Assembly: GCA_017503645.1 (NCBI GenBank)
Contig: JAFVSR010000039.1
Span: 30,729-94,728, forward strand
Length of the DNA stretch: 64,000 nt
Origin: Bacteroidaceae bacterium
Lineage (GTDB): Bacteria; Bacteroidota; Bacteroidia; Bacteroidales; Bacteroidaceae
Direction of reading: 5' to 3'
The position numbers and the translations under genes are program-made. The notes under the pieces are model-generated. The model had not been told where the DNA came from. It saw only the letters and a list, made by a program, of their open reading frames with translations, and searched no databases. Shown piece after piece: positions 45,893 through 56,155 of this stretch (positions are counted from its first letter, which is position 1; every line of letters begins with the position of its first letter).

Positions 45893-46004
45893 TTGTGTTA
45901 TGGTTTGAATTTGTGTGCGAAGATAGTGATAAAAACCAAATTCTCGGCAAAAATGGCTCTTCTATTGATGTGCCGCGGGCATAAAATATGTAATGCCATA
46001 TATA

Positions 46005-46050
46005 ATATAACAACCGTAAGGCTTCTACAGAAGCCTTACGGTTGTTATAT
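46005..46050 (-). terminator. Terminator of the tubulin-like operon
   Basis: A perfect 22-bp stem (46005-46026 with 46029-46050) around a 2-nt loop; it follows the stop of the last gene by 16 nt on the minus strand and also faces the upstream region of miaB. Confidence 0.9.
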
Positions 46051-46066
46051 GTGAAGTGTAAATCTA

Positions 46067-46804
46067 TTAGATTGTTATGTCATCGAGTGAGCCTGCATCA
46101 CCTTCGTCCTCAAGGCCCTTCATAATGTCCTCGGTAGTTTTGGACATAGCCTCTACGTTCTCAAAGTCAATACCATCTACATCGGAAAGGTCTGCGTTGG
46201 CATCCTTCATCTCACCCTCCTCGTTGAAGGTCTTTTCGTAAGCCTCGATGGTTTTCTTATACTCTTTGAGCTCGCTGTTCAGCTTTTTTACCTGCTTTAT
46301 CTCGTCACCCGAGAGCACCAAGCCTGTCAATGCACCTGTGGCAGCACCTTTCAATGCATCTTTTTTGTTTCCACCACCCAGAAGAGCGGCACCGGCACCT
46401 GTTAATGCGCCTTTACCCACATTGGCAAGGATTTTTGTAACCTCTTTTGTGCGTGCACTTACAATCTCTTTTGCCTTGTTGGCCGAACATACATTGCCAT
46501 TGGCATCGATGATGTGGTATCTTATTTTTGCTGTACCATCCTCGTTCTTCAATGTGTCACCGGCAGCATTTGTTTCATAAATCTTCTTCACGGTGAAGCT
46601 GATTTTATCGTTCAACAACGCTTTTACGTCAATGGAATCGTTGTTTTCGGCAGCCTCGGTAGTCTCGGCTGTTTCTGTGGCTGCAACTGCGCTGCTAACC
46701 TTTTCAGCAGCTTTGCTGAGTTTTTTCAGGAAACTTTGTGCCATTGCACCATTGCTGAGTGACAGCGCCAATACAAGCACAACTGATTTTAGAATTGTTT
46801 TCAT
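46067..46804 (-). CDS. Exported protein of unknown function with glycine-zipper segment
   Basis: A 245-residue protein; signal peptide MKTILKSVVLVLALSLSNGA with cleavage before QSFLKKL. An acidic/Ala-rich stretch (about 25-55) is followed by a compact region, then a glycine-rich hydrophobic part (about 130-165, ALTGAGAALLGGG and GAATGALTGLVLSG) like glycine-zipper proteins that insert in or span membranes, then a coiled coil (SELKEYKKTIEAYEKTFNEE) and an acidic tail. No known domain is assigned. Last of nine genes in the tubulin-like operon. Confidence 0.8.
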   Translation of the reverse strand: MKTILKSVVLVLALSLSNGAMAQSFLKKLSKAAEKVSSAVAATETAETTEAAENNDSIDVKALLNDKISFTVKKIYETNAAGDTLKNEDGTAKIRYHIIDANGNVCSANKAKEIVSARTKEVTKILANVGKGALTGAGAALLGGGNKKDALKGAATGALTGLVLSGDEIKQVKKLNSELKEYKKTIEAYEKTFNEEGEMKDANADLSDVDGIDFENVEAMSKTTEDIMKGLEDEGDAGSLDDITI

Positions 46805-46836
46805 AGTAATGTAATTAATTGGTTTATTTATTTAGT

Positions 46837-48408
46837 TTATTTTGTAAACATCTTAAGACGGAACTGTCTTTCCATATATGAGCCATTGGAGCGTCTCATC
46901 AAGTCGTCTTGTCCCAAGTAGTAAATCTTTACGTCGTCATTGTCCACGGGGCGGAAGATGAGACCTTTTGGCAGTTTGTTTCTGTTAAGTTCTATCTTTG
47001 CCTTGCCTGCGTAGTTTGTAACGCCTATCTGGGTGTAGTTGTGCGGGTTCTTGTCCTTAGTCTTTCTGAATCGTTTGTCTGTGGAGAACGTGCTCGCTGT
47101 TATGGCTTCTGTGCCATTGTATGCCCATATTTCCACGTCGGCTATGGCATTGCCCTCGTGCAAAGTCTTCCATTCCACAACGGTGAAGGTGATGCACAAA
47201 GGCATATTGTTGAGTATGTTCTCAAGTTTTTCAATGCGGCTCGAATAGAACTCGTCGGGCTTGTATGCGTTGAGAATCTGCAAGAAATCTATTGCGGCCG
47301 ATGTGTAGTCGGCTACCGTGTTCTGTGTGGCCGAGCCGCTCTCTTTCAGCTGGTTTATCTTTCTCAACGCCTTGGCGGCGAGGCTTTCATATCTGATGCA
47401 AGAGTCGCACAATGCAATCGAGGTCTTTATGTTCGACTTTATGCCCTCTGTGGCATCCTTGGCATTGAGTGCATTTTCAAAAGCAACTTTTGCCTCTTTG
47501 AACTTGCGTATGTCGAACAATTTGCCTCCCTCGCTCATATGCAGGCTGCAGTCGGTCTTGTATATCTCTTTCTCTATGATAAGCGGTAGCACCACATAGC
47601 ACTTTTTTGAGCGGGGGCCCATATCCGATATGTCGAGTGTTATCCTGTTGGAGTTGTCGCAATAGACATACACGGTGACAAGCTTGCTGTAGTGCTCCTG
47701 TGCTTTGTTAAGCTCTCTTCCAAGCTCGTCGAGCTTCTCCCACTCCTCGTCCTTGGCGTTGTCGATCTCCTTGAGGTATTTATCAAGTTCGTCGAATGCC
47801 TTCTGCGCATTCTCTACAGCTTTTTCGGCACTCTTTATAACCTCAATGGGAATTATTATAGATGTAATAACGAGGTCGCGGTCGCCATCTTTTTTCGCGC
47901 TCTTCTTTTCGAGTACGATTTGTGGCTCACACTCTATTTGCAGGTTTTCCAACGATGTGGTAAACTCCAGCTCGGCCTTCTCCTCATCGAGAATGGCATC
48001 GTTTGCCGTTGTCTGGTCGTCCATACGGATGGGGTTGGCAACCTCCTCCATACTGTAACCCACAAAGTGCCCGCGCTTTACGCCTGCAATGAAATCTGTT
48101 TTGTAAACATTGCCTCGGCGGTTTATCTCCACCTTGGGCTGTGCCACGTCGGTGAGTATCTCGTATTCATATATACCCAGGCTTTTTACGTGCTTGGGCG
48201 GTTTTATATCGGCTTTCTGTCCCTCTCCGATATTAACGATATTTATCACCAGGTCGTAATGCTTTGCGGCGATTATGATACCGTACATATTATCATCCTC
48301 ACTCGGGAAGTCGAGGCTCTTGTCTCTCTGCACCGAGATATATTCCGATTGTGCCAGCAGAGGCAATGTCAGAAACAGGCTTAATATAAATGTCAATCTC
48401 TTTATCAT
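46837..48408 (-). CDS. Exported protein of unknown function with coiled coil
   Basis: A 523-residue protein; signal peptide MIKRLTFILSLFLTLPLLA then QSEYISVQRDK. The N-terminal ~190 residues look beta-rich, followed by a coiled coil (about 190-240, KAVENAQKAFDELDKYLKEI), a TPR-like helical part containing FKEAKVAFENALNAKDATEG, and a C-terminal beta region (EGNAIADVEIWAYNGTEAIT) similar to carboxypeptidase-regulatory-like folds. No enzyme motif. It lies 32 nt before the glycine-zipper gene and 5 nt after the lipoprotein gene. Confidence 0.8.
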   Translation of the reverse strand: MIKRLTFILSLFLTLPLLAQSEYISVQRDKSLDFPSEDDNMYGIIIAAKHYDLVINIVNIGEGQKADIKPPKHVKSLGIYEYEILTDVAQPKVEINRRGNVYKTDFIAGVKRGHFVGYSMEEVANPIRMDDQTTANDAILDEEKAELEFTTSLENLQIECEPQIVLEKKSAKKDGDRDLVITSIIIPIEVIKSAEKAVENAQKAFDELDKYLKEIDNAKDEEWEKLDELGRELNKAQEHYSKLVTVYVYCDNSNRITLDISDMGPRSKKCYVVLPLIIEKEIYKTDCSLHMSEGGKLFDIRKFKEAKVAFENALNAKDATEGIKSNIKTSIALCDSCIRYESLAAKALRKINQLKESGSATQNTVADYTSAAIDFLQILNAYKPDEFYSSRIEKLENILNNMPLCITFTVVEWKTLHEGNAIADVEIWAYNGTEAITASTFSTDKRFRKTKDKNPHNYTQIGVTNYAGKAKIELNRNKLPKGLIFRPVDNDDVKIYYLGQDDLMRRSNGSYMERQFRLKMFTK

Positions 48409-48413
48409 ATCAA

Positions 48414-48773
48414 TTATTCGCTTATGGTTTCCATAAAGCCCTCAATTCCACCTTGCAGTTGGTGACCGAAGTTTTTAAGCATATTGCCAACCTCGCCCAT
48501 CGATTGCTTGGCAATTGTGGCATACATTTGCCCTTTCAAGCGGCCAATCTCTTTGAGCTCCTCGTTTGTGTAGTGGTGTTTCTCCATCTCTTCACTGATG
48601 CGGGAGAATTCGTCAATGGCCTCTTCCCACTCCTCGGCAGTGTATTCCGCGTACTCCTTTTCGGTCTCTTCAACAAGTGACCTTAAATTGTTTACGGCCA
48701 TCTGCGCCGGGTTGCACGATAGCAGAACCAGTGATAGAAGTATGCTTGAAAAAGCAGATATTATAGTTCTCAT
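48414..48773 (-). CDS. Small lipoprotein with helical body
   Basis: A 119-residue lipoprotein (LVLLSCN, Cys20). The body is almost wholly helical and acidic (YTAEEWEEAIDEFSRISEEM; YTNEELKEIGRLKGQMYATI). The pattern resembles a recurring family of short Bacteroidales lipoproteins (DUF6565-like in my recollection, not checked). Ends GGIEGFMETISE. It lies 12 nt after the NTF2-like gene. Function unknown. Confidence 0.78.
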   Translation of the reverse strand: MRTIISAFSSILLSLVLLSCNPAQMAVNNLRSLVEETEKEYAEYTAEEWEEAIDEFSRISEEMEKHHYTNEELKEIGRLKGQMYATIAKQSMGEVGNMLKNFGHQLQGGIEGFMETISE

Positions 48774-48785
48774 TCCTCAATAATT

Positions 48786-49802
48786 TTATAGATTGAATGC
48801 TCCTAATGTCGAAATGTCGTCGTCGGGCTCCAGTTTCACATCGCCGGCCCATTCGGGCTGCCAGGTGCGCACGTGAATTACCGGTTTGTCTTCCTCTGTG
48901 AAATCCCAAAGGAGGAACAGGTAGCCTGTGTCGCTGTAGTTGCTTGAACGCCACTCTTGGCGCAGGCGTACTCCATACATATTGCTGTTTACCTTTGAGC
49001 GTGTAATGCCGGGGCAGCCACCATCCTCGCCGTTGTCGCCAATCTCGCTGAATTTGACATCAATCCATTTGTTTCTCTTGAAGGCTCTTTCAAGATTTGA
49101 CAAATATTGCTGTTTGTTCTGTTTCTTGTAGTTTACCTTCATTTTGCTGTAGGGGCTTTCGGCATTGCTCACCATAGTGACGTTACCGGTGATGATGAGA
49201 GCGTCGTCGCTGAATATCCGCCTGAGGAACTCTATATCCTTTTTGTTATATGCAGTGCGGAAACGCTCGCAATAGGATAGAATCTTCATCTTGTGCTCCT
49301 GGTCCACGACGCCGCCGCAATTCTCCATACTCTCGGACAGTTGTGCATCTAGCGAGAAACGGAAATCCTTAATCACTCCCTGCTGGTCGAAATCGACAAC
49401 GGCCTCCTGGTATGTACCATTACCGAAGCTCTCGCCATCGACGGTTATGATGAGTGGAATGTGGCTCACCATAAACTCCTTGCCACCATCGAACACCCAG
49501 CATCTTTCCACAACCTCTTCGTCGTCGCAATAAAAATGTATATTTGCCCATAGCATAAGGAGTGCATCCTGTGCATCCTTTGTCATAGGCAGGTTCACAA
49601 TCTTTAGCGGGCGATTCTCCTTGTGTGCGTCGTTAATCTCGGTAAGCACCTTTGACAGGTTCTGCGACATTTTGTTTATTATAGATTTGTTGCTGAAGCT
49701 CTCATCGGCTGTTATAACTGCTGTAACTTCCTGTGCTGCAATGTTGCTGCTCAAAAAAACAGCAAGCAATAGAAAGATAGTTCCTTTACAAAGATTCTTC
49801 AT
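48786..49802 (-). CDS. Exported protein with NTF2-like domain
   Basis: A 338-residue protein; signal peptide MKNLCKGTIFLLLAVFLSSN with AAQEVTAVITADESF after it. An N-terminal region (LKIVNLPMTKDAQDALLMLW) resembles a conserved Bacteroidales exported family. From about residue 185 an NTF2/SnoaL-like part begins: YCERFRTAYNKKDIEFLRRI then FSDDALIITG, ending with YLFLLWDFTEEDKPVIHVRT and WQPE. Such domains bind small ligands or mediate protein contacts. It shares the tubulin-like operon, 22 nt after the preceding gene. Confidence 0.82.
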   Translation of the reverse strand: MKNLCKGTIFLLLAVFLSSNIAAQEVTAVITADESFSNKSIINKMSQNLSKVLTEINDAHKENRPLKIVNLPMTKDAQDALLMLWANIHFYCDDEEVVERCWVFDGGKEFMVSHIPLIITVDGESFGNGTYQEAVVDFDQQGVIKDFRFSLDAQLSESMENCGGVVDQEHKMKILSYCERFRTAYNKKDIEFLRRIFSDDALIITGNVTMVSNAESPYSKMKVNYKKQNKQQYLSNLERAFKRNKWIDVKFSEIGDNGEDGGCPGITRSKVNSNMYGVRLRQEWRSSNYSDTGYLFLLWDFTEEDKPVIHVRTWQPEWAGDVKLEPDDDISTLGAFNL

Positions 49803-49824
49803 AATAGGTTCAATTTATATTTTG

Positions 49825-50571
49825 TTAAAGTTTTATTATCAGTGCTCCTCGTTTTTTGTTGCCTCCTCTGTAGTTGTCGAGGCTGTCGGGTTGTCCCGTT
49901 TTGTAATTGGTGCGCTGTGCGCCGGGCGAGAGAATGGCTTCGATGTTGCCATCTATGTCGTACACAACCAGCGCATATGTCTCTATGTTGGGTGTTTCAT
50001 CGGTGTAACGGCCGAATTTTTTAATTACGCCTTCTGCTTTCAGCTCTTTAATGCAAGCAGCCAGAGCATCGTAATCGGTAAGTGGCAGTATGCGCTCGAT
50101 TGCTTTTGGCAGGGTTGGCTTTTCGGCTTCTTTTTTGCTGTTTATGGTTATTGTTGCGGGCGCCTTTTGTACAGCTGTTTCTACTGCGGGTACTTTTGGC
50201 GTGGCCGTTGCTGTGCCGTTGCTGCCGGCGCCTTCTATAATATTGTCTTTATGCACATATACAAAAGCCCTATACATATTGCCACGCGGCAGTTCTATCT
50301 TTTTTGCCACACTTTCCACGTTGTTGGCGATGGCGTTCCCGTTCTTCTCGGCCCAACTGTTCATCTGCCCTTGCAACGCCTCCATTGCACTGTTTAATGC
50401 CTCGCTCTTGTCGGGCAGGGTGCTCTCGTGATATATGTACTGCGAGTTCTTCTTTATGTTGTTAATCTCTTTTTTAAGCTCGCTGCTCTGCTGTGCTGCT
50501 GCATTGCCTGCAAACAGCGTTAAGAGAGCAAGCAAAAGTGTGGCGTAGTGCTGTTTCATATATGCAATCAT
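49825..50571 (-). CDS. Exported protein of unknown function, Bacteroidales family
   Basis: A 248-residue protein; signal peptide ending FAGNAAAQ. Sequence QSSELKKEINNIKKNSQYIY then HESTLPDKSEALNSAMEALQ, and KKIELPRGNMYRAFVYVHKD resembles a family I associate with Bacteroides clusters that also hold the NTF2-like protein. A Thr/Ala/Pro-rich linker (about 115-155) separates it from a C-terminal part (LTDYDALAACIKELKAEGVI...). The ATGA overlap with the preceding gene supports the start at 50571; a second ATG at 50559 is possible. Confidence 0.78.
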   Translation of the reverse strand: MIAYMKQHYATLLLALLTLFAGNAAAQQSSELKKEINNIKKNSQYIYHESTLPDKSEALNSAMEALQGQMNSWAEKNGNAIANNVESVAKKIELPRGNMYRAFVYVHKDNIIEGAGSNGTATATPKVPAVETAVQKAPATITINSKKEAEKPTLPKAIERILPLTDYDALAACIKELKAEGVIKKFGRYTDETPNIETYALVVYDIDGNIEAILSPGAQRTNYKTGQPDSLDNYRGGNKKRGALIIKL

Positions 50572-51662
50572 TGTATCTTCTTATAGTTGTTCTGGTTGAA
50601 AAATTTCTTGGTTACGTTTTGCATTGGGATATATACGAATAATCGTCCTTTGAGTATGCCTTCTTTCTTCTTTAGTGCTTCAATGGGCATCTCTACGCTC
50701 AGCATATGTGTGTACCCCAACAATTCGTTTGTCCAAAACAGTGTTCCGGTGTATTTGTCCTCTCTTTTCTCTTTAATACCGAAATATGCGGTGCATCCCT
50801 CCTCTTCGCACAACTGCTGCAAAGCTCTTAGGTCGACCGAGCAACTGCTTTCCTTGTAACCATATTTGTCGAGCTTCAGGTTGAGCCTGTAGTTGCCCTC
50901 GGTCTTGCTGCACAGCATTGTGTTCGACAGGCTTTTGTATGCATCCTTTTCGTTTGCTATAAGTTCCCATTTGCCCTCGTTCCGTTGGAAATAGAGGTCG
51001 TTCCTTATGGCATCAATCAAAAAATTATTGCCCTCCTTTACAAAATAGTCCTCCTCGGGGAAGTCTATCTCATAATTTACGGTGTCGTTCTCCTTTACCT
51101 TGTATCTAAGCATCTTTTTCAGGAACAGTTCCTCTAATTGCACGGCATCACAGCCTGTAAGTAGCTGGTAGTCCATCTCGAAGGATATCGACAACACGGT
51201 GCGATTCTCCCTTTTCCATTCAACGGAATAGCTTGTGAACGATTCGCAGGAGTAGTGGAATGTTTCATTGCCTGTGAACCGGAATATCTCGTTGGGTGTT
51301 CCCACGTTGAATTTTACATTGTCAAGCGCAAGTCTCACGGCGTGCTCTGTGTTATCCGCGGCAATTTTTTCCAGCAGATATCTTTCGATGAAATCGTATA
51401 AAACGGTTTCGTTCTTTTGTGCAATGGCACGGTTGAACAATTTGAACCCAATGTGTTCAACCTCCTTCCATTCATTCACCCTTATCGACAGCGGTCGTCC
51501 TTTGTACGAGTAATTGGTGTGCTCGCCAATGGAAAGGGTGTCAACTCCTTTCAGTTCCAGAAAAGCCGCCAATGCCTGCTGGCGTGGTGTGGCATAGTCG
51601 GTTGCCCATAACAGGGCAACCGACCACGCTAACATCACAATAAGGCATAAGCTCCTTTTCAT
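50568..51662 (-). CDS. Exported protein of unknown function
   Basis: A 364-residue protein with a signal peptide (MKRSLCLIVMLAWSVALLWA). The mature part begins TDYATPRQQALAAFLELKGV and alternates beta- and helix-prone stretches; no recognised domain, lipobox or catalytic motif. Contains charged repeats such as FLKKMLRYKVKENDTVNYEI. The start is 7 nt after the zinc-ribbon gene; the end overlaps the next gene by 4 nt. It is likely periplasmic or outer-membrane associated and co-expressed with the tubulin-like protein. Confidence 0.78.
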   Translation of the reverse strand: MKRSLCLIVMLAWSVALLWATDYATPRQQALAAFLELKGVDTLSIGEHTNYSYKGRPLSIRVNEWKEVEHIGFKLFNRAIAQKNETVLYDFIERYLLEKIAADNTEHAVRLALDNVKFNVGTPNEIFRFTGNETFHYSCESFTSYSVEWKRENRTVLSISFEMDYQLLTGCDAVQLEELFLKKMLRYKVKENDTVNYEIDFPEEDYFVKEGNNFLIDAIRNDLYFQRNEGKWELIANEKDAYKSLSNTMLCSKTEGNYRLNLKLDKYGYKESSCSVDLRALQQLCEEEGCTAYFGIKEKREDKYTGTLFWTNELLGYTHMLSVEMPIEALKKKEGILKGRLFVYIPMQNVTKKFFNQNNYKKIQ

Positions 51663-51669
51663 AGCTTGT

Positions 51670-52218
51670 TTACTTGTGGGTAATAATTACCCTGTTGCCA
51701 TCTTTCTGGTAAAGGGTAACAAGGTTCACCTCACCATTCACCCATTTGCCCTGTGCATACTCGCCGGGCTGGGCAACGATGTTGCCTTTTGAGCCGGGAA
51801 CAACACATTTTTTGTTAAACGTCATTGTTCCGTTGCCGTGAGGCTTGCCATTTTGTGTGGCACCTTCATATGTAAAGGGCTCTACGTTGTCGTCAACGAC
51901 CATACCCCCTGTGCTACCGCCATTTTCTTTACCCATTTCCACTTCTGTGTCACCACCTTTTTCGGTGCCACCGCCTGTTTTATCATCTCCAATTGAACTC
52001 AAGCCGATAGCTATACCGCCTATGATTGCTATGGCGCCGATGGCAAGAAGAATCTTCTTGCCGTGTTTTTTTATAACACCTCCACCGTCGTCTCCACCAC
52101 CAAACGGAATAAGTTGCTCGCCGCATTCGGGGCACACAAATTCGGTTTTCTCAACCTCCTGTATCTCGTTGCATTTTATGCAGTCTTCATTTCTGCATAT
52201 ACCTTTTACTTTTGCCAT
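51670..52218 (-). CDS. Zinc-ribbon membrane-anchored protein with MORN-like repeats
   Basis: A 182-residue protein with three parts. Residues 8-32 form a zinc ribbon (Cys8, Cys13, Cys16, Cys29, Cys32 in CRNEDCIKC and CPEC). After a Gly/Asp linker a single helix (about 56-73, ILLAIGAIAIIGGIAIG) crosses the membrane. The outside part, after a Gly/Glu-rich spacer, has two MORN-like units (YEGATQNGKPHGNGTMTF; YAQGKWVNGEVNLVTLYQKD). Topology with the ribbon in the cytoplasm would let it link the tubulin-like protein to the periplasm. It lies 18 nt after that gene. Function inferred from layout only. Confidence 0.8.
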   Translation of the reverse strand: MAKVKGICRNEDCIKCNEIQEVEKTEFVCPECGEQLIPFGGGDDGGGVIKKHGKKILLAIGAIAIIGGIAIGLSSIGDDKTGGGTEKGGDTEVEMGKENGGSTGGMVVDDNVEPFTYEGATQNGKPHGNGTMTFNKKCVVPGSKGNIVAQPGEYAQGKWVNGEVNLVTLYQKDGNRVIITHK

Positions 52219-52236
52219 ATTTTTTATCTGTTTTTA

Positions 52237-55200
52237 TTACAAATCCTGTAACTCCTTGTTGATGATTCCCATTGCAATCTGCCTGTACTCTACGTAGATG
52301 GGGCTGAATTGGTTACCCTCGCACATTGTGGGCAGAATAACTTGCTGAACCACTGCTCCTACCTCTTTTCTGAGTTCTGCCTTCTGGTCGTTGCTGCGTG
52401 CCTTTACAGCCAGCTCTTTTTCCACCTGTTCCACAAGAATTTTAGACTTTCTGTGGTCTTGTACAAGTACATTGAGGCTGCTTGCAAAGTCCTTGCCTAT
52501 CTGCACCCAGTTGTCACCGAATATTTCGTCGGGGATGTTCATTGCATAGAACTTGGCGCCTGTAGTGGGGTCTTGCTGCTGCTGAATGAGCTTGAGCGCG
52601 AATGCAAGTACAAGTTTAGGCTTCATCATTTCCAATTTTTCGCGAGCATCGATTTCAAACAATGCGGGCAATGGCTTTTTAAAGCTCTCCGAGTGCAGTA
52701 CCATTCTGTTGAGGTCCTTTTGAGGTGCGGCCAACAGACGGTCGTATTTCTCTTTGAGAGTAACCATATTCTCCAGATATCTCAATGGGAATGCCGAGTT
52801 TGCATAAACCACTACTATCTGGTTGGGCTTGAAGTTCTCCGAGAGGTCGCCGTCGTTGAAGCTGGGTACGAAACTGGGGAACTTGTTACGGAACGCTGCA
52901 ATCAGTTTATCGGTGAACGCCTTTGCCGAGTCGTTCTCTGCCTTGGGCAGTGCCACCTGCAGCATAGTCATCATCTGTCCTGTGTTACCCTCTATTACCT
53001 TGCTTGTTTCGGCAGGGTTGAACTGAACATATGATTTTGCATAGTCTATAATCTGGTCAACAAATTTCTCTATCTTATCCTCGGTGTTAAGGTCCACTTT
53101 GAGCTTGTCAAGGATGTTCACGCCCACCATCTTCATCAACGGGTCGTTCTGTGCAGTGTTCTCCATAGCATCTATGGCGTTCTTTGTACAGATGTCGAGT
53201 ATGATGTCCGATGCAGTGTCAAGGTCGAGTGTAGAGTAGAGGTGTGCAAATGTGCGCTCGCCCTCCTCGCCAAGGCCTGTCACAATTCTTGCACGAATCT
53301 CGGCAGCATTGCCGTTCTGGTACTCGAAGTTGCATCTGTACTGCTTGATGAGTGAGTGAACCTTCTCGGGGTCGTATCGTTTAACGATAGAGTCATCGCT
53401 TTGGGCATCCTTCTGGCACTTCGATGCAGCCATCTTTGTCACCTGGTCGAGGATGGTGATGAGCTCGTTCTTCATAGCCTGTACACCCTCAATCATGCTG
53501 CCAAGCTCCACAATAATCTCCTGCAACAGCAGAATTGCATATTGGTAAGACTCCATCTTGGTGGCTACAACATAGAAGTTGCACTTTGCGCTCTTGTATT
53601 TTGCAAAAGCCTTCTCCGATGCATTTGTGATGGCATCTCTTATCCAACCGATGTTGTTCCACTCTGTCTCGGCATCCTTGATGGCTCTGGCATACTCCTC
53701 CTGTTGCAGCTCCAGTTTCGAAATCTGCTGTTTGAATGCTGTGATGCGGTCCGAGCAGTCGGCGCGCAAAAGCTGTGCATATTTCTCAATTTCAAGTATG
53801 CTCTTGCTGTCCTTAGTGCCGCTGGCCCATTCGTTGAAAAGCAATCCCTCGATGTGGCGGCGTATGTGGCGTGCATAGCCTTTGAGCTCCTGGCGCTGAA
53901 TATCGAAGAACTTCTTTACACCGTGTTTGCGGAATGTGTCGTTGAAATAGTTGTCGGCAAGTTTTGTAAACTCGGCAAGCCACTGTTTCTTTTCGTATTG
54001 GCCCTGTACCAACCCTGCATCCATCTGTGTGCGGGTTTCCCATGTTGTGCTGAATGGTTTCCAGTTTGCAGTGGCGGGTGAGTCCACAATTTGCTTCTCC
54101 AATGTGAGGTCGGCGTTAGACAACAGCAGATTGCCGCGCTTCTTTATGTCCTTTATCTCGTCGGCAAATCCCATACCCACCTCGTCGAGTGAGCACTCGC
54201 TGTAGCCAGTACCATCCACCCATTTGTTGAATGTGAGCTGGCGTGCGGCCTGTATTGCATAGTTGTATGTGGCAAATTCGCCAATCTCGGTTTCGGGATA
54301 CTCCACTCTGGTGATACCGAACGACATAAACTTGCGGCTGTGTGTGAGGTCGCCGTTCTGGTCGCGCTCGGGGCCCGCACCATCGTTCTCGGCGCCTAAA
54401 AGTCTTGCCATCTTTCCCTTTCCGCCGTTGGTGTTGGCCACAACTATTGTCTGGAACATAAAGTCGGCAACCGATGCGGGAAGGCGATGGCTCAAATCGA
54501 GCATCTTGCCATTCTCGTTCACGTTGCTGTAAATATATGCGGCCTCAAATGTCTCCTGGCCCTGCATAAGTCTTTGTACCTGCTGTGTGAACACATCTTT
54601 TTCGCCGGTAATATCAAGCGGGAGGTAGTGGCCTGTGCTTATGGCGTTGAGCTCGCTCAATGCTGCGTAGCCGTTTGCCTGGTAGAAACCGCTGTCGTGG
54701 TCGGCATATACCATATTGCGCTCGGGCATATATATGAAAAGACGTATTTTGAATGCGTGTGTCGATTGCTGGTAGGGGTATTTCTTTCTAATCTGCGAAA
54801 TGACATCGACGATAGAACCCGAACCTGTACCACCCGCCAAGCCTGCGCAAATGTGGAATGTAACGTCGTTGCTCTCCGATGCTGTCTGCAGTCTCACAAC
54901 GGCGGCCTGCAACATATTGTTGAAGCTGTATTTGTTGTTTCTGTCGGCAAGGTTGTTGGCCATCAGCATACGGCCAAGTCGTCTGCGCTGTCCACCTATA
55001 CCTGCTGTAATCAGCGGCCCCATATGTTGGTCAATCAGTTGCTTGTCCTCTTCTGTAATAAAGCTTTGGAGGCCGGGGTACATACCCAGGTTCTGTATCA
55101 TTGAAGAGTTTATTCCATTGATGTTTACCTTTTGTGCCTCGCCCAGGTGTACGCTCTTGCCCACAACCTTCCAGCCGTCTCTTTTGTTCAGGTCTTCGGG

Positions 55201-55341
55201 TGATGAATCCACATACAGGTAGTCGAGGAATACGTCACCATCGGGGTCGTTGCTGCGAAACTCTTCATAAACACGTTTGCGGAACTCGCGTAGAACCTTT
55301 CCACCGGTACCACCCAATCCAATAATAAGATGATTTGACAT
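52237..55341 (-). CDS. Tubulin/FtsZ-like GTPase family protein (tubulin_2 type)
   Basis: A 1034-residue cytoplasmic protein. The N-terminal ~420 residues have the tubulin/FtsZ nucleotide fold: T1-like loop IGLGGTGGKVLR (7-18), T3-region GIGGQRRRLGR (about 114-124), and the tubulin signature LAGGTGSGS at 168-176. FtsZ itself is about 400 residues and has GGGTGTG here; this protein lacks FtsZ's other features and has a ~600-residue extension, helical with coiled coils near 540-600. Related bacterial families (tubulin-like PF13809, FtsZ-like groups) have been linked by comparative genomics to membrane remodelling. It is second in a nine-gene operon with membrane and exported proteins. Polymerisation is not shown. 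Confidence 0.85.
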   Translation of the reverse strand: MSNHLIIGLGGTGGKVLREFRKRVYEEFRSNDPDGDVFLDYLYVDSSPEDLNKRDGWKVVGKSVHLGEAQKVNINGINSSMIQNLGMYPGLQSFITEEDKQLIDQHMGPLITAGIGGQRRRLGRMLMANNLADRNNKYSFNNMLQAAVVRLQTASESNDVTFHICAGLAGGTGSGSIVDVISQIRKKYPYQQSTHAFKIRLFIYMPERNMVYADHDSGFYQANGYAALSELNAISTGHYLPLDITGEKDVFTQQVQRLMQGQETFEAAYIYSNVNENGKMLDLSHRLPASVADFMFQTIVVANTNGGKGKMARLLGAENDGAGPERDQNGDLTHSRKFMSFGITRVEYPETEIGEFATYNYAIQAARQLTFNKWVDGTGYSECSLDEVGMGFADEIKDIKKRGNLLLSNADLTLEKQIVDSPATANWKPFSTTWETRTQMDAGLVQGQYEKKQWLAEFTKLADNYFNDTFRKHGVKKFFDIQRQELKGYARHIRRHIEGLLFNEWASGTKDSKSILEIEKYAQLLRADCSDRITAFKQQISKLELQQEEYARAIKDAETEWNNIGWIRDAITNASEKAFAKYKSAKCNFYVVATKMESYQYAILLLQEIIVELGSMIEGVQAMKNELITILDQVTKMAASKCQKDAQSDDSIVKRYDPEKVHSLIKQYRCNFEYQNGNAAEIRARIVTGLGEEGERTFAHLYSTLDLDTASDIILDICTKNAIDAMENTAQNDPLMKMVGVNILDKLKVDLNTEDKIEKFVDQIIDYAKSYVQFNPAETSKVIEGNTGQMMTMLQVALPKAENDSAKAFTDKLIAAFRNKFPSFVPSFNDGDLSENFKPNQIVVVYANSAFPLRYLENMVTLKEKYDRLLAAPQKDLNRMVLHSESFKKPLPALFEIDAREKLEMMKPKLVLAFALKLIQQQQDPTTGAKFYAMNIPDEIFGDNWVQIGKDFASSLNVLVQDHRKSKILVEQVEKELAVKARSNDQKAELRKEVGAVVQQVILPTMCEGNQFSPIYVEYRQIAMGIINKELQDL

Positions 55342-55367
55342 AGTTTTATATTTTTAAGTTAATTGTT

Positions 55368-55958
55368 TCAGAAAACGTCGTCGCTGTAATTTGTTGTAAA
55401 TGTAGTGCCCTTTCTATAGCTTGTGCCACCGATGGCGGGCCCGCCACGCCTGAGTGTCTTTATGCCGATGAAGGCTGCCACCACAGTGAATCCAAGACAC
55501 CACAAAAGCCGCCTTCCAATATACCACCACATATATGTGCGTATCCCGTCGGCAATAGCTGCGGGCAGTTCTTGTGCGTTATATCCCTGAAAATACCCAC
55601 CCGCTATGTAGTGCGACAAAAGAGGATATTCTTCGGTTACTTTGTCAATGATGTACTCGGAATCGCGTTTGCTAATCTCCTCCCAGCCTTGGGAAACGCC
55701 ATCTAAGATTCTCTCGACGAACAGCTCGAATTCATCCGTGGAGTTTATTATCTTGATGGAGCCTACGATGAGCGTGCATTGGATGGTGATGAAGAAAAGC
55801 AGTATTATGCCCACAATGTACGATGCGGCGGTGAAGGAGGCGTTCTTTAACCATCCCATAACAATGGTTGCAAACAATGCCACGCAAGCCACAGCTATGA
55901 GTATTCCCCAAAACAGGCTTGAGAAGGAATTTATAAGAATGTCTATTAAAAAATCCAT
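55368..55958 (-). CDS. Three-helix membrane protein, first gene of the tubulin-like operon
   Basis: A 196-residue integral membrane protein: helices about 13-35 (SLFWGILIAVACVALFATIV), 44-67 (AASYIVGIILLFFITIQCTL) and 145-164 (YIGRRLLWCLGFTVVAAFIG), with a ~75-residue loop between the second and third (VERILDGVSQGWEEISKRDS). The C-terminal tail is Gly/Thr-rich and polar. No known family is recognised. It lies 26 nt before the tubulin-like gene, directly behind the promoter region, and is a candidate membrane receptor for it. Confidence 0.8.
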   Translation of the reverse strand: MDFLIDILINSFSSLFWGILIAVACVALFATIVMGWLKNASFTAASYIVGIILLFFITIQCTLIVGSIKIINSTDEFELFVERILDGVSQGWEEISKRDSEYIIDKVTEEYPLLSHYIAGGYFQGYNAQELPAAIADGIRTYMWWYIGRRLLWCLGFTVVAAFIGIKTLRRGGPAIGGTSYRKGTTFTTNYSDDVF

Positions 55959-56045
55959 ATATTCACCGGTTCGTTGCTTTGTGCAACATTTTTACTTTTG
56001 TTGTATAAATAGTTACAAATTATTGCTAATAATTCCAAAATCGCA

Positions 56046-56082
56046 CAAATGTACAAATTACAGGTCTGTAATTACCCCCCCC
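56046..56082 (-). promoter_or_regulatory. Promoter region of the tubulin-like operon: -7 element, palindrome and G8 tract
   Basis: On the minus strand: G8 (56082-56075), then the perfect palindrome AATTACAGACCTGTAATT (56073-56056), then TACATTTG (56053-56046). The palindrome fills the spacer and -33 place, where a dimeric regulator would block or replace polymerase contact. No TTG is found at the normal distance. Leader to the first ATG is about 80 nt. Confidence 0.5.
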
Positions 56083-56155
56083 GATGTTAAGAATTGTTAA
56101 AACAAACTAAAATTGGGAAAATCCCTCTTCTTGGAGGATATTTAACAAACATCAT

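Follow-up and report, generated by a model that had tools for sequence, protein, structure and literature searches.

An FtsZl1-family tubulin homologue in a conserved operon of membrane and exported proteins in Bacteroidaceae

What might a tubulin homologue do in an operon whose other products are for the most part exported or membrane-bound? In this study, we analysed a stretch of 64,000 nucleotides from a Bacteroidaceae genome (the window; assembly GCA_017503645.1, contig JAFVSR010000039.1, positions 30,729 to 94,728), in which an earlier sequence-only reading had picked out nine co-directional, closely spaced genes around a tubulin/FtsZ-like GTPase. The genes were found as described: nine open reading frames (ORFs) lie in one orientation on the minus strand between window positions 46067 and 55958. 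They are named here g1, tub and g3 to g9 in transcription order, and the gaps between them are, in that order, 26, 18, 7, -4, 22, 12, 5 and 32 nt. N-termini and hydropathy also agree with the proposal of two membrane proteins and six exported proteins or lipoproteins, g1 having three predicted transmembrane (TM) helices, g3 one, and the six others signal-peptide-like or lipoprotein N-termini; topology and export were called from hydropathy and by eye, not with SignalP. Our tentative answer, to which we give somewhat less than an even chance, is that the tubulin-family GTPase acts through the g3 protein to drive or position an exported complex associated with the wall.

By its sequence matches, tub is a member of the FtsZl1 family. 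The search with hidden Markov models that the sequence-only reading had proposed gave a match to PF13809 (Tubulin_2) at residues 5-365, scoring 167.2 bits where the cut-off is 27 (E 7.8e-49), and only a sub-threshold match to PF00091 (24.1 bits against 33, E 5.2e-5). Two of the three tubulin loops named earlier hold up, T1 (G-x-GGTGG) and T4 (GGTGSG) being invariant in 23/23 aligned proteins of the operon type defined below as type A, but T3 could not be confirmed; by eye, the invariant residues N223 and G224 are a candidate for T6/H7. Against the PDB, the tub profile matched tubulin beta with E 0.058 and, slightly better, a designed helical bundle (E 0.04), and the single sequence matched tubulin beta with E 0.18; HHalign of tub against 18 FtsZ sequences aligned T4 at a probability of at most 27%. 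An AlphaFold2 model, whose input was, as for g6 below, the window, L031 and L032 sequences only, has a mean predicted local distance difference test (pLDDT) score of 35.7, which makes it unusable for judging the nucleotide pocket; as to the coiled-coil region and helical C-terminal domain of the family, helices appear in it at about residues 448-644. An ordinary FtsZ is encoded on another contig of the same genome (155.6 bits to PF00091), and PF00091 is matched above its cut-off in 19/21 genomes, this one included. Since the genome also carries a normal FtsZ, tub is not the division protein.

The FtsZl1 family was described in 2010 by Makarova and Koonin, whose alignment includes a Bacteroides caccae sequence. 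According to the available parts of that paper, the majority of its operons contain a vWA gene and often kinases, P-loop GTPases or OmpA proteins, and a role in membrane remodelling has been predicted since then (PMC2875224). The window resembles these systems in that tub is a protein of about 1000 amino acids (aa) with an N-terminal tubulin domain carrying T1 and T4, and in that the operon encodes membrane and exported proteins and occurs beside a normal FtsZ (PMC2875224, in part). In the portion seen of a 2023 superfamily paper, Tubulin_2 proteins are treated as sparse and divergent (PMC9871819). RefSeq-derived plasmid records label proteins of this family tubulin-like; on an Azospirillum plasmid (L152 4313-18753), such a gene lies amid OmpA-family, caspase-family, DUF4384 and PEGA genes. 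In two further loci (L039 5652-7973 and L041 5652-7973), a second tubulin homologue of 774 aa with a degenerate T1 loop precedes tub; it is perhaps a GTP-binding-deficient heteropolymer partner.

Are the neighbours of tub constant? PF13809 is matched in 32/201 sampled genomes of the same family, in 28 above the cut-off. Loci were examined in 30 of the 32, window included (G121 and G163, with weak matches, were left out), and two named Prevotella metagenome-assembled genomes, near-identical to each other, were added (L031 and L032). Altogether, 25 loci, window included, share an operon type that we call type A. The order g1-tub-g3-g4-g5-g6-g8-g9 is constant among their called genes, some of which are missing or uncalled (counts in Table 1); L051 is interrupted by a contig end, and the simple ORF caller missed genes such as g4 of L055, which a separate search found. 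Exceptions are a second tub copy in L039 and L041, a second g6 in L048 and a split tub in L054. Of the nine-gene unit claimed at the outset, eight genes therefore keep their order in 25 loci, but g7 is not a constant member, its relatives being found, among the other type-A loci, only in L056, at another position, and also in L059, which is not of type A.

The genome-wide survey points the same way. All 23 genomes with type-A tubulin (of 201) also carry g4 and full-length g6, the latter present in 37/201 genomes and g4 in the same 37 plus one with a weak partial match; co-occurrence of tub with g4 has a Fisher p of 2e-20, which ignores relatedness. Neighbours that vary freely, which would have spoken against a conserved operon, were thus not seen. 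One might still suppose that unrelated genes have come to surround a tubulin homologue by chance, since the neighbours are without functional annotation and g8 and g9 were not found in some loci. We regard this as hardly credible in view of the order kept in 25 loci, the co-occurrence in 23/23 genomes and the presence of the cassette as a whole at a site where a relative lacks it (G116, see below). As the order recurs in other genomes, the grouping goes beyond chance. Outside type A, the same-family FtsZl1 loci L037, L050 and L057-L059 were found to have none of g1, g3-g6, g8 and g9, and no operon gene was found in three loci with weak PF13809 matches (L060-L062). Next to tub, a vWA match falls just below the cut-off in L057 (22.0 bits against 23.8) and is weak in L058; in L037 there is no Pfam vWA match at this place. 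In a phylum-wide sample, PF13809 is matched in 13/395 genomes (10 above the cut-off) and the type-A profile in 6/395, and one more family of the order has the full operon minus g7 as well (G545, L100).

The cassette looks mobile and horizontally acquired, as judged from sequence comparison. Its flanking genes are housekeeping-like by eye, a MiaB-like gene downstream and a gene for a dolichol-phosphate-mannose-synthase-like glycosyltransferase upstream. In the closest sampled relative, G116 (91% complete), MiaB is 99% identical and the two flanking genes are 195 bp apart, and the G116 genome has no match to tub, g4 or g6. Homology between the two genomes ends at window position 45953 and resumes at 56155, so that the insert corresponds to the operon with its signals. 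The flanking pair lies within 500 bp in 23/41 genomes of the genus; in 17 others besides the window it is separated, broken or incomplete, and these are uninformative. By eye, neither an integrase nor an obvious target duplication was seen at the window insert. The operon has a G+C content of 46.9% and its flanks have 50.9 and 51.4%, and tub is 93-97% identical between three genera (G094, G160 and G149) where MiaB is 80-83% identical. In addition, the g6 data reject tubulin clade I (23 rows; log-likelihood 164 lower, approximately unbiased test p_AU 0.0006), and tubulin seems to have been exchanged within the operon against g6, as read from a tubulin tree of the quick kind in which some branches are long.

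Such a patchy distribution (type-A tubulin in 23/201 family genomes), with apparent transfer between genera (tub 97% where MiaB 83%) and insertion as a cassette, would also suit a conflict or defence system, in which the role of the tubulin-like GTPase would be to sense or time an attack, and that of the exported or Gly-zipper proteins to damage the envelope of the very cell that makes them. Predicted GTPase-vWA conflict systems include tubulin-domain genes, according to the available part of the source (PMC7159879), and on a Thermus oshimai plasmid (L151 5628-15279) a tubulin-like gene lies among TROVE, vWA and brxL genes, a setting that suits conflict for other FtsZl1 proteins. A patatin gene stands beside a copy of the exported module without tub (L077), and another such copy is adjoined on the opposite strand by a 431-aa protein with, by eye, a TIR-like N-terminus (L073 9167-10462). 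We nevertheless consider this explanation improbable, though one to be taken seriously: the best PADLOC match has E 0.0039 and covers 29 residues, which is not meaningful, none of the nine proteins matches a vWA, nuclease, NADase or STAND domain, and 6/9 are exported. Some of the GTPase-centred and vWA-MoxR conflict systems, as far as covered in PMC7159879, resemble the operon in that their multi-gene units include tubulin-domain proteins, which there have coiled or helical C-termini; unlike in those systems, vWA, MoxR and TRAFAC GTPase partners and effectors were not recognised in the nine proteins. More generally, the nine proteins gave nothing above the NCBIfam cut-offs and only weak matches to PADLOC and PHROGs, and a search of viral contigs and phage records found no relative.

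The candidate for a connection between tub and the envelope through the inner membrane is g3. Its four ribbon cysteines (C8, C13, C29 and C32) are invariant in the alignment, and a MORN-like C-terminal region is present in 17/22 members (E up to 0.1). A Big_2 Ig-like domain in 6/22 members is positioned after the TM segment in the alignment, which argues that the C-terminal end is outside; lysine and arginine are more abundant before than after the TM segment in 16/22 members. In G065, a genome with no PF13809 match, a 548-aa fusion of Ser/Thr kinase (E 3e-29), TM segment and MORN stretch stands directly before g4-g5-g6 (L077 2472-4118), near FHA, LytTR and patatin genes; its C-terminal MORN stretch is homologous to g3, and no other single finding speaks as strongly for a coupling role of g3. 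In G551, from another family of the phylum, the gene that follows a type-A-like tub encodes a ribbon, a TM segment, a PBP_like domain (6.7e-28) and an OmpA domain (8.5e-17) (L101 5354-6916, on a contig that ends shortly after this gene), and it is this OmpA-ended adaptor that points most strongly to the cell wall as the target. On a Paraburkholderia megaplasmid (L083, a nearly unannotated record), tub is 27% identical over 95% of its length and the next gene encodes ribbon-TM-TPR. Judged by these domain matches, the ribbon and TM segment stay with tub in the G551 and Paraburkholderia loci and the outer end varies. The earlier proposal of the zinc-ribbon/MORN protein as the coupling piece is likely to be correct, the kinase, OmpA and TPR swaps supporting it.

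The place of tub itself seems swappable, as read from further gene orders. G083, a genome that carries a type-A locus elsewhere, has a second locus (L076) in which the genes before g4-g5-g6-g8-g9 encode two large proteins that give ribbon-type matches and a ribbon-TPR-TM protein whose end resembles g3. What stands before g4-g6-g8-g9 in G127 (L075) is a lipoprotein-like protein in which Big_2 and MORN are matched. The occupants in G065, G083 and G127 each come from one genome. In L063-L073 (genus g24 and a few others; two of these loci come from genomes that have type-A tubulin at another locus), the gene before g4 encodes a large exported protein, and the two examined match Sel1/TPR (L065 above the cut-off, L073 below); upstream of the module in L074, nothing was recognised. 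From L063 to L070 (e.g. L064 4860-12100), a tub-less exported operon of large exported protein, g4, g6 and a distant g8 recurs in genus g24. We did not accept as an adaptor the FmdB-like ribbon protein encoded next to tub in L102 (ribbon profile E 5e-4), nor did we count ribbon-type proteins that inspection by eye alone placed near tub in L148 and L149. Around the distant FtsZl1 gene of L149 (6491-12740), there are, by eye, two proteins with ribbon-like cysteines, of 72 and 405 aa, and one that is vWA-like.

What would the adaptor act on? Among the exported proteins, g6 appears to be NTF2-like and weakly of the Csd6/Pgp2 type, as far as profile matches tell. With E up to 1, DUF4440 is matched in 24/25 g6 members (best E 3.2e-4), the window g6 being below the cut-off, and Cds6_C in 17/25 (best 6.5e-6); we take the 'Cds6' of the Pfam name to be Csd6. 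The best match of the g6 profile in the PDB has E 0.18. The same C-terminal domain also occurs in frames about 600 aa long from other genomes, such as a 614-aa protein (L079) with an LPP20 domain, a Cds6_C match above the cut-off and a PDB match to Campylobacter Pgp2 (6xj7, E 0.0093), and a protein that has WG repeats and reaches the Cds6_C cut-off (L078). According to the available part of the source, the pocket of the Pgp2 NTF2 domain binds peptidoglycan and is required for helical shape (PMC8038945). Like the cell-shape carboxypeptidases Csd6, Pgp2 and Bd1075, g6 appears to share this type of accessory domain; unlike them, it stands alone as an exported protein encoded in the operon of a tubulin homologue, with no LD-carboxypeptidase domain among the 16 Pfam families matched by the 25 g6 members at E up to 1. 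For g5, an LPP20 match is found in 1/21 members (E 0.0096).

The neighbourhoods of other proteins with this g6-type domain have suggested another function, namely a machine that assembles an appendage or outer-membrane structure or displays it at the surface, tubulin being the placement device. Fimbrillin-like genes lie near g6-type domains in L078 and L081 (Mfa_like_1 E 1e-65 and 5.1e-59; the domain in L081 was placed by a separate search, not from the ORF list), and BACON/PEGA proteins lie near those in L079 and L080. However, the fimbrillin neighbours belong to other g6-domain proteins and not to the window operon, and the nine proteins contain no pilin, usher, porin or secretion ATPase match; we think this explanation improbable. 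Assembly at the outer membrane, which the sequence-only reading had also envisaged, is unproven.

Returning to the proposal that tub drives or positions a wall-associated complex, we envisage, as the simplest account, that tub would serve as a cytoplasmic, GTP-dependent switch or scaffold of the tubulin family, which the ribbon-TM-MORN adaptor g3 and the three-TM protein g1 would hold at the inner membrane. Its state or polymer would be passed via the periplasmic end of the adaptor to an exported, wall-associated complex of g4, g5, g6, g8 and g9, which would thereby be driven or positioned. The NTF2-like domain of g6 may touch peptidoglycan, and the output would be local remodelling of the wall and envelope, or placement of an envelope structure. 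In this chain, GTP turnover, polymer formation, the contact between ribbon and tubulin, peptidoglycan binding and the physiological output are what we infer; the family of tub, the operon's conservation, the topology signals, the domain swaps and the occupied and empty site are read from the sequences.

Several results weigh against the proposal. Type-A tubulin is absent from 15/38 g4-positive genomes (one of the 15, G066, having a weak partial match); therefore tubulin is not essential to the exported module, and g4 and g6 are the constant pair with tubulin as one possible companion. Whether tub forms filaments is uncertain because T6-H7 is, in the available part of the 2010 paper, unidentifiable in the FtsZl1 family (PMC2875224). 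The positive-inside bias is absent in 6/22 g3 proteins, the kinase, OmpA and TPR swaps each come from one genome, and, apart from the discounted match in L102, profile searches found no g3-like adaptor in the more distant FtsZl1 loci L147-L152, L037, L050, L057-L059, L102 and L103. The window g6 itself reaches only 11.0 bits against a cut-off of 27 for Cds6_C (E 0.54); its AlphaFold2 model, made from three sequences, is poor (mean pLDDT 47.2), and Foldseek with this weak model returned NTF2-like folds at a best E of 3.4e-3, with none at 0.001 or below, so that these folds are no more than supportive. No enzyme domain was recognised in the exported proteins with Pfam and NCBIfam, and so nothing was seen that could cut or build wall. 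A more general idea is that of a plug-in envelope machine, in which an exported module built on g4 and g6 accepts varied cytoplasmic inputs by way of a one-TM adaptor, the driver being a tubulin-family GTPase, a Ser/Thr kinase or absent. A polymer of bacterial tubulin would then have a physical connection through the inner membrane to the cell wall, which in the G551 relative an OmpA domain would make directly; we hold this idea to be doubtful, if well worth considering.

How new is this arrangement? We claim that the protein family was already known and that the operon type is a new variant. Unlike most FtsZl1 operons, as far as these are covered in PMC2875224, the window operon combines an adaptor of the ribbon-TM-MORN kind with an exported module, one protein of which is NTF2-like. 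No vWA gene was matched among the nine proteins (E up to 1), nor are the flanking genes vWA genes by eye; likewise, no OmpA protein, P-loop GTPase or protein kinase was found in the nine (E up to 1), except for weak Gly-zipper matches of g9 to OmpA-named models (E 0.33; YiaD E 0.0018, 18 bits against 175). The operon type is not described in the open-access literature searched, which did not cover the supplementary gene lists of the 2010 paper (families A1-A2 and B1-B9), and it is possible that some of the operon genes were listed earlier in that supplement (PMC2875224).

The features of the operon are collected in Table 1. A promoter upstream of g1 is plausible from the sequence: of the promoter region proposed at 56.05 kb, one candidate -7 element, TACATTTG, extends from position 56053, but it has no clear -33 partner. 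The label follows what we take to be the Bacteroidales-type -7 consensus. A terminator-like stem lies after the last gene, as proposed.

Table 1. Positions of the operon genes, signals and insert in the window
Feature	Position	Strand	Remarks
g1, 196 aa, inner-membrane protein	55368..55958	-	three predicted TM helices; called in 23/25 type-A loci
tub, 1034 aa, FtsZl1/Tubulin_2	52237..55341	-	tubulin domain residues 5-365; PF13809 E 7.8e-49; T1/T4 invariant 23/23
g3, adaptor	51670..52218	-	N-terminal Cys4 ribbon, TM 56-74, MORN-like C-terminus; called in 23/25 loci
g4, 364 aa, exported, no known family	50568..51662	-	signal-peptide-like N-terminus; 23/25 loci
g5, 248 aa, exported	49825..50571	-	LPP20-like N-terminal domain (weak, mostly by eye); 22/25 loci
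g6, 338 aa, exported	48786..49802	-	C-terminal NTF2-like domain; 24/25 loci
g7, 119-aa lipoprotein, accessory	48414..48773	-	lipobox
g8, 523 aa, exported	46837..48408	-	probable central coiled coil, weak matches around 188-247; 20/25 loci
g9, 245 aa, exported	46067..46804	-	Gly-zipper-like stretch, YMGG Gly-zipper E 0.011, below cut-off; 18/25 loci
intrinsic-terminator-like stem-loop after g9	46006..46049	-	20 pairs, the maximum the tool counts
candidate -7 promoter element TACATTTG	56046..56053	-	upstream of g1; no clear -33 partner
segment without counterpart at the empty site of G116	45954..56154	.	10.2 kb

For the FtsZl1 family, the adaptor, with a probably cytoplasmic ribbon, one TM segment and an outer end of the MORN, TPR or OmpA type, offers a concrete and testable answer to the question of its role. 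The cassette of about 10 kb was not found in a very close relative, which provides a natural comparison with and without it. Carried by a gut-type Bacteroidales bacterium, it suggests a route by which an internal tubulin-like switch may act on the wall and envelope.

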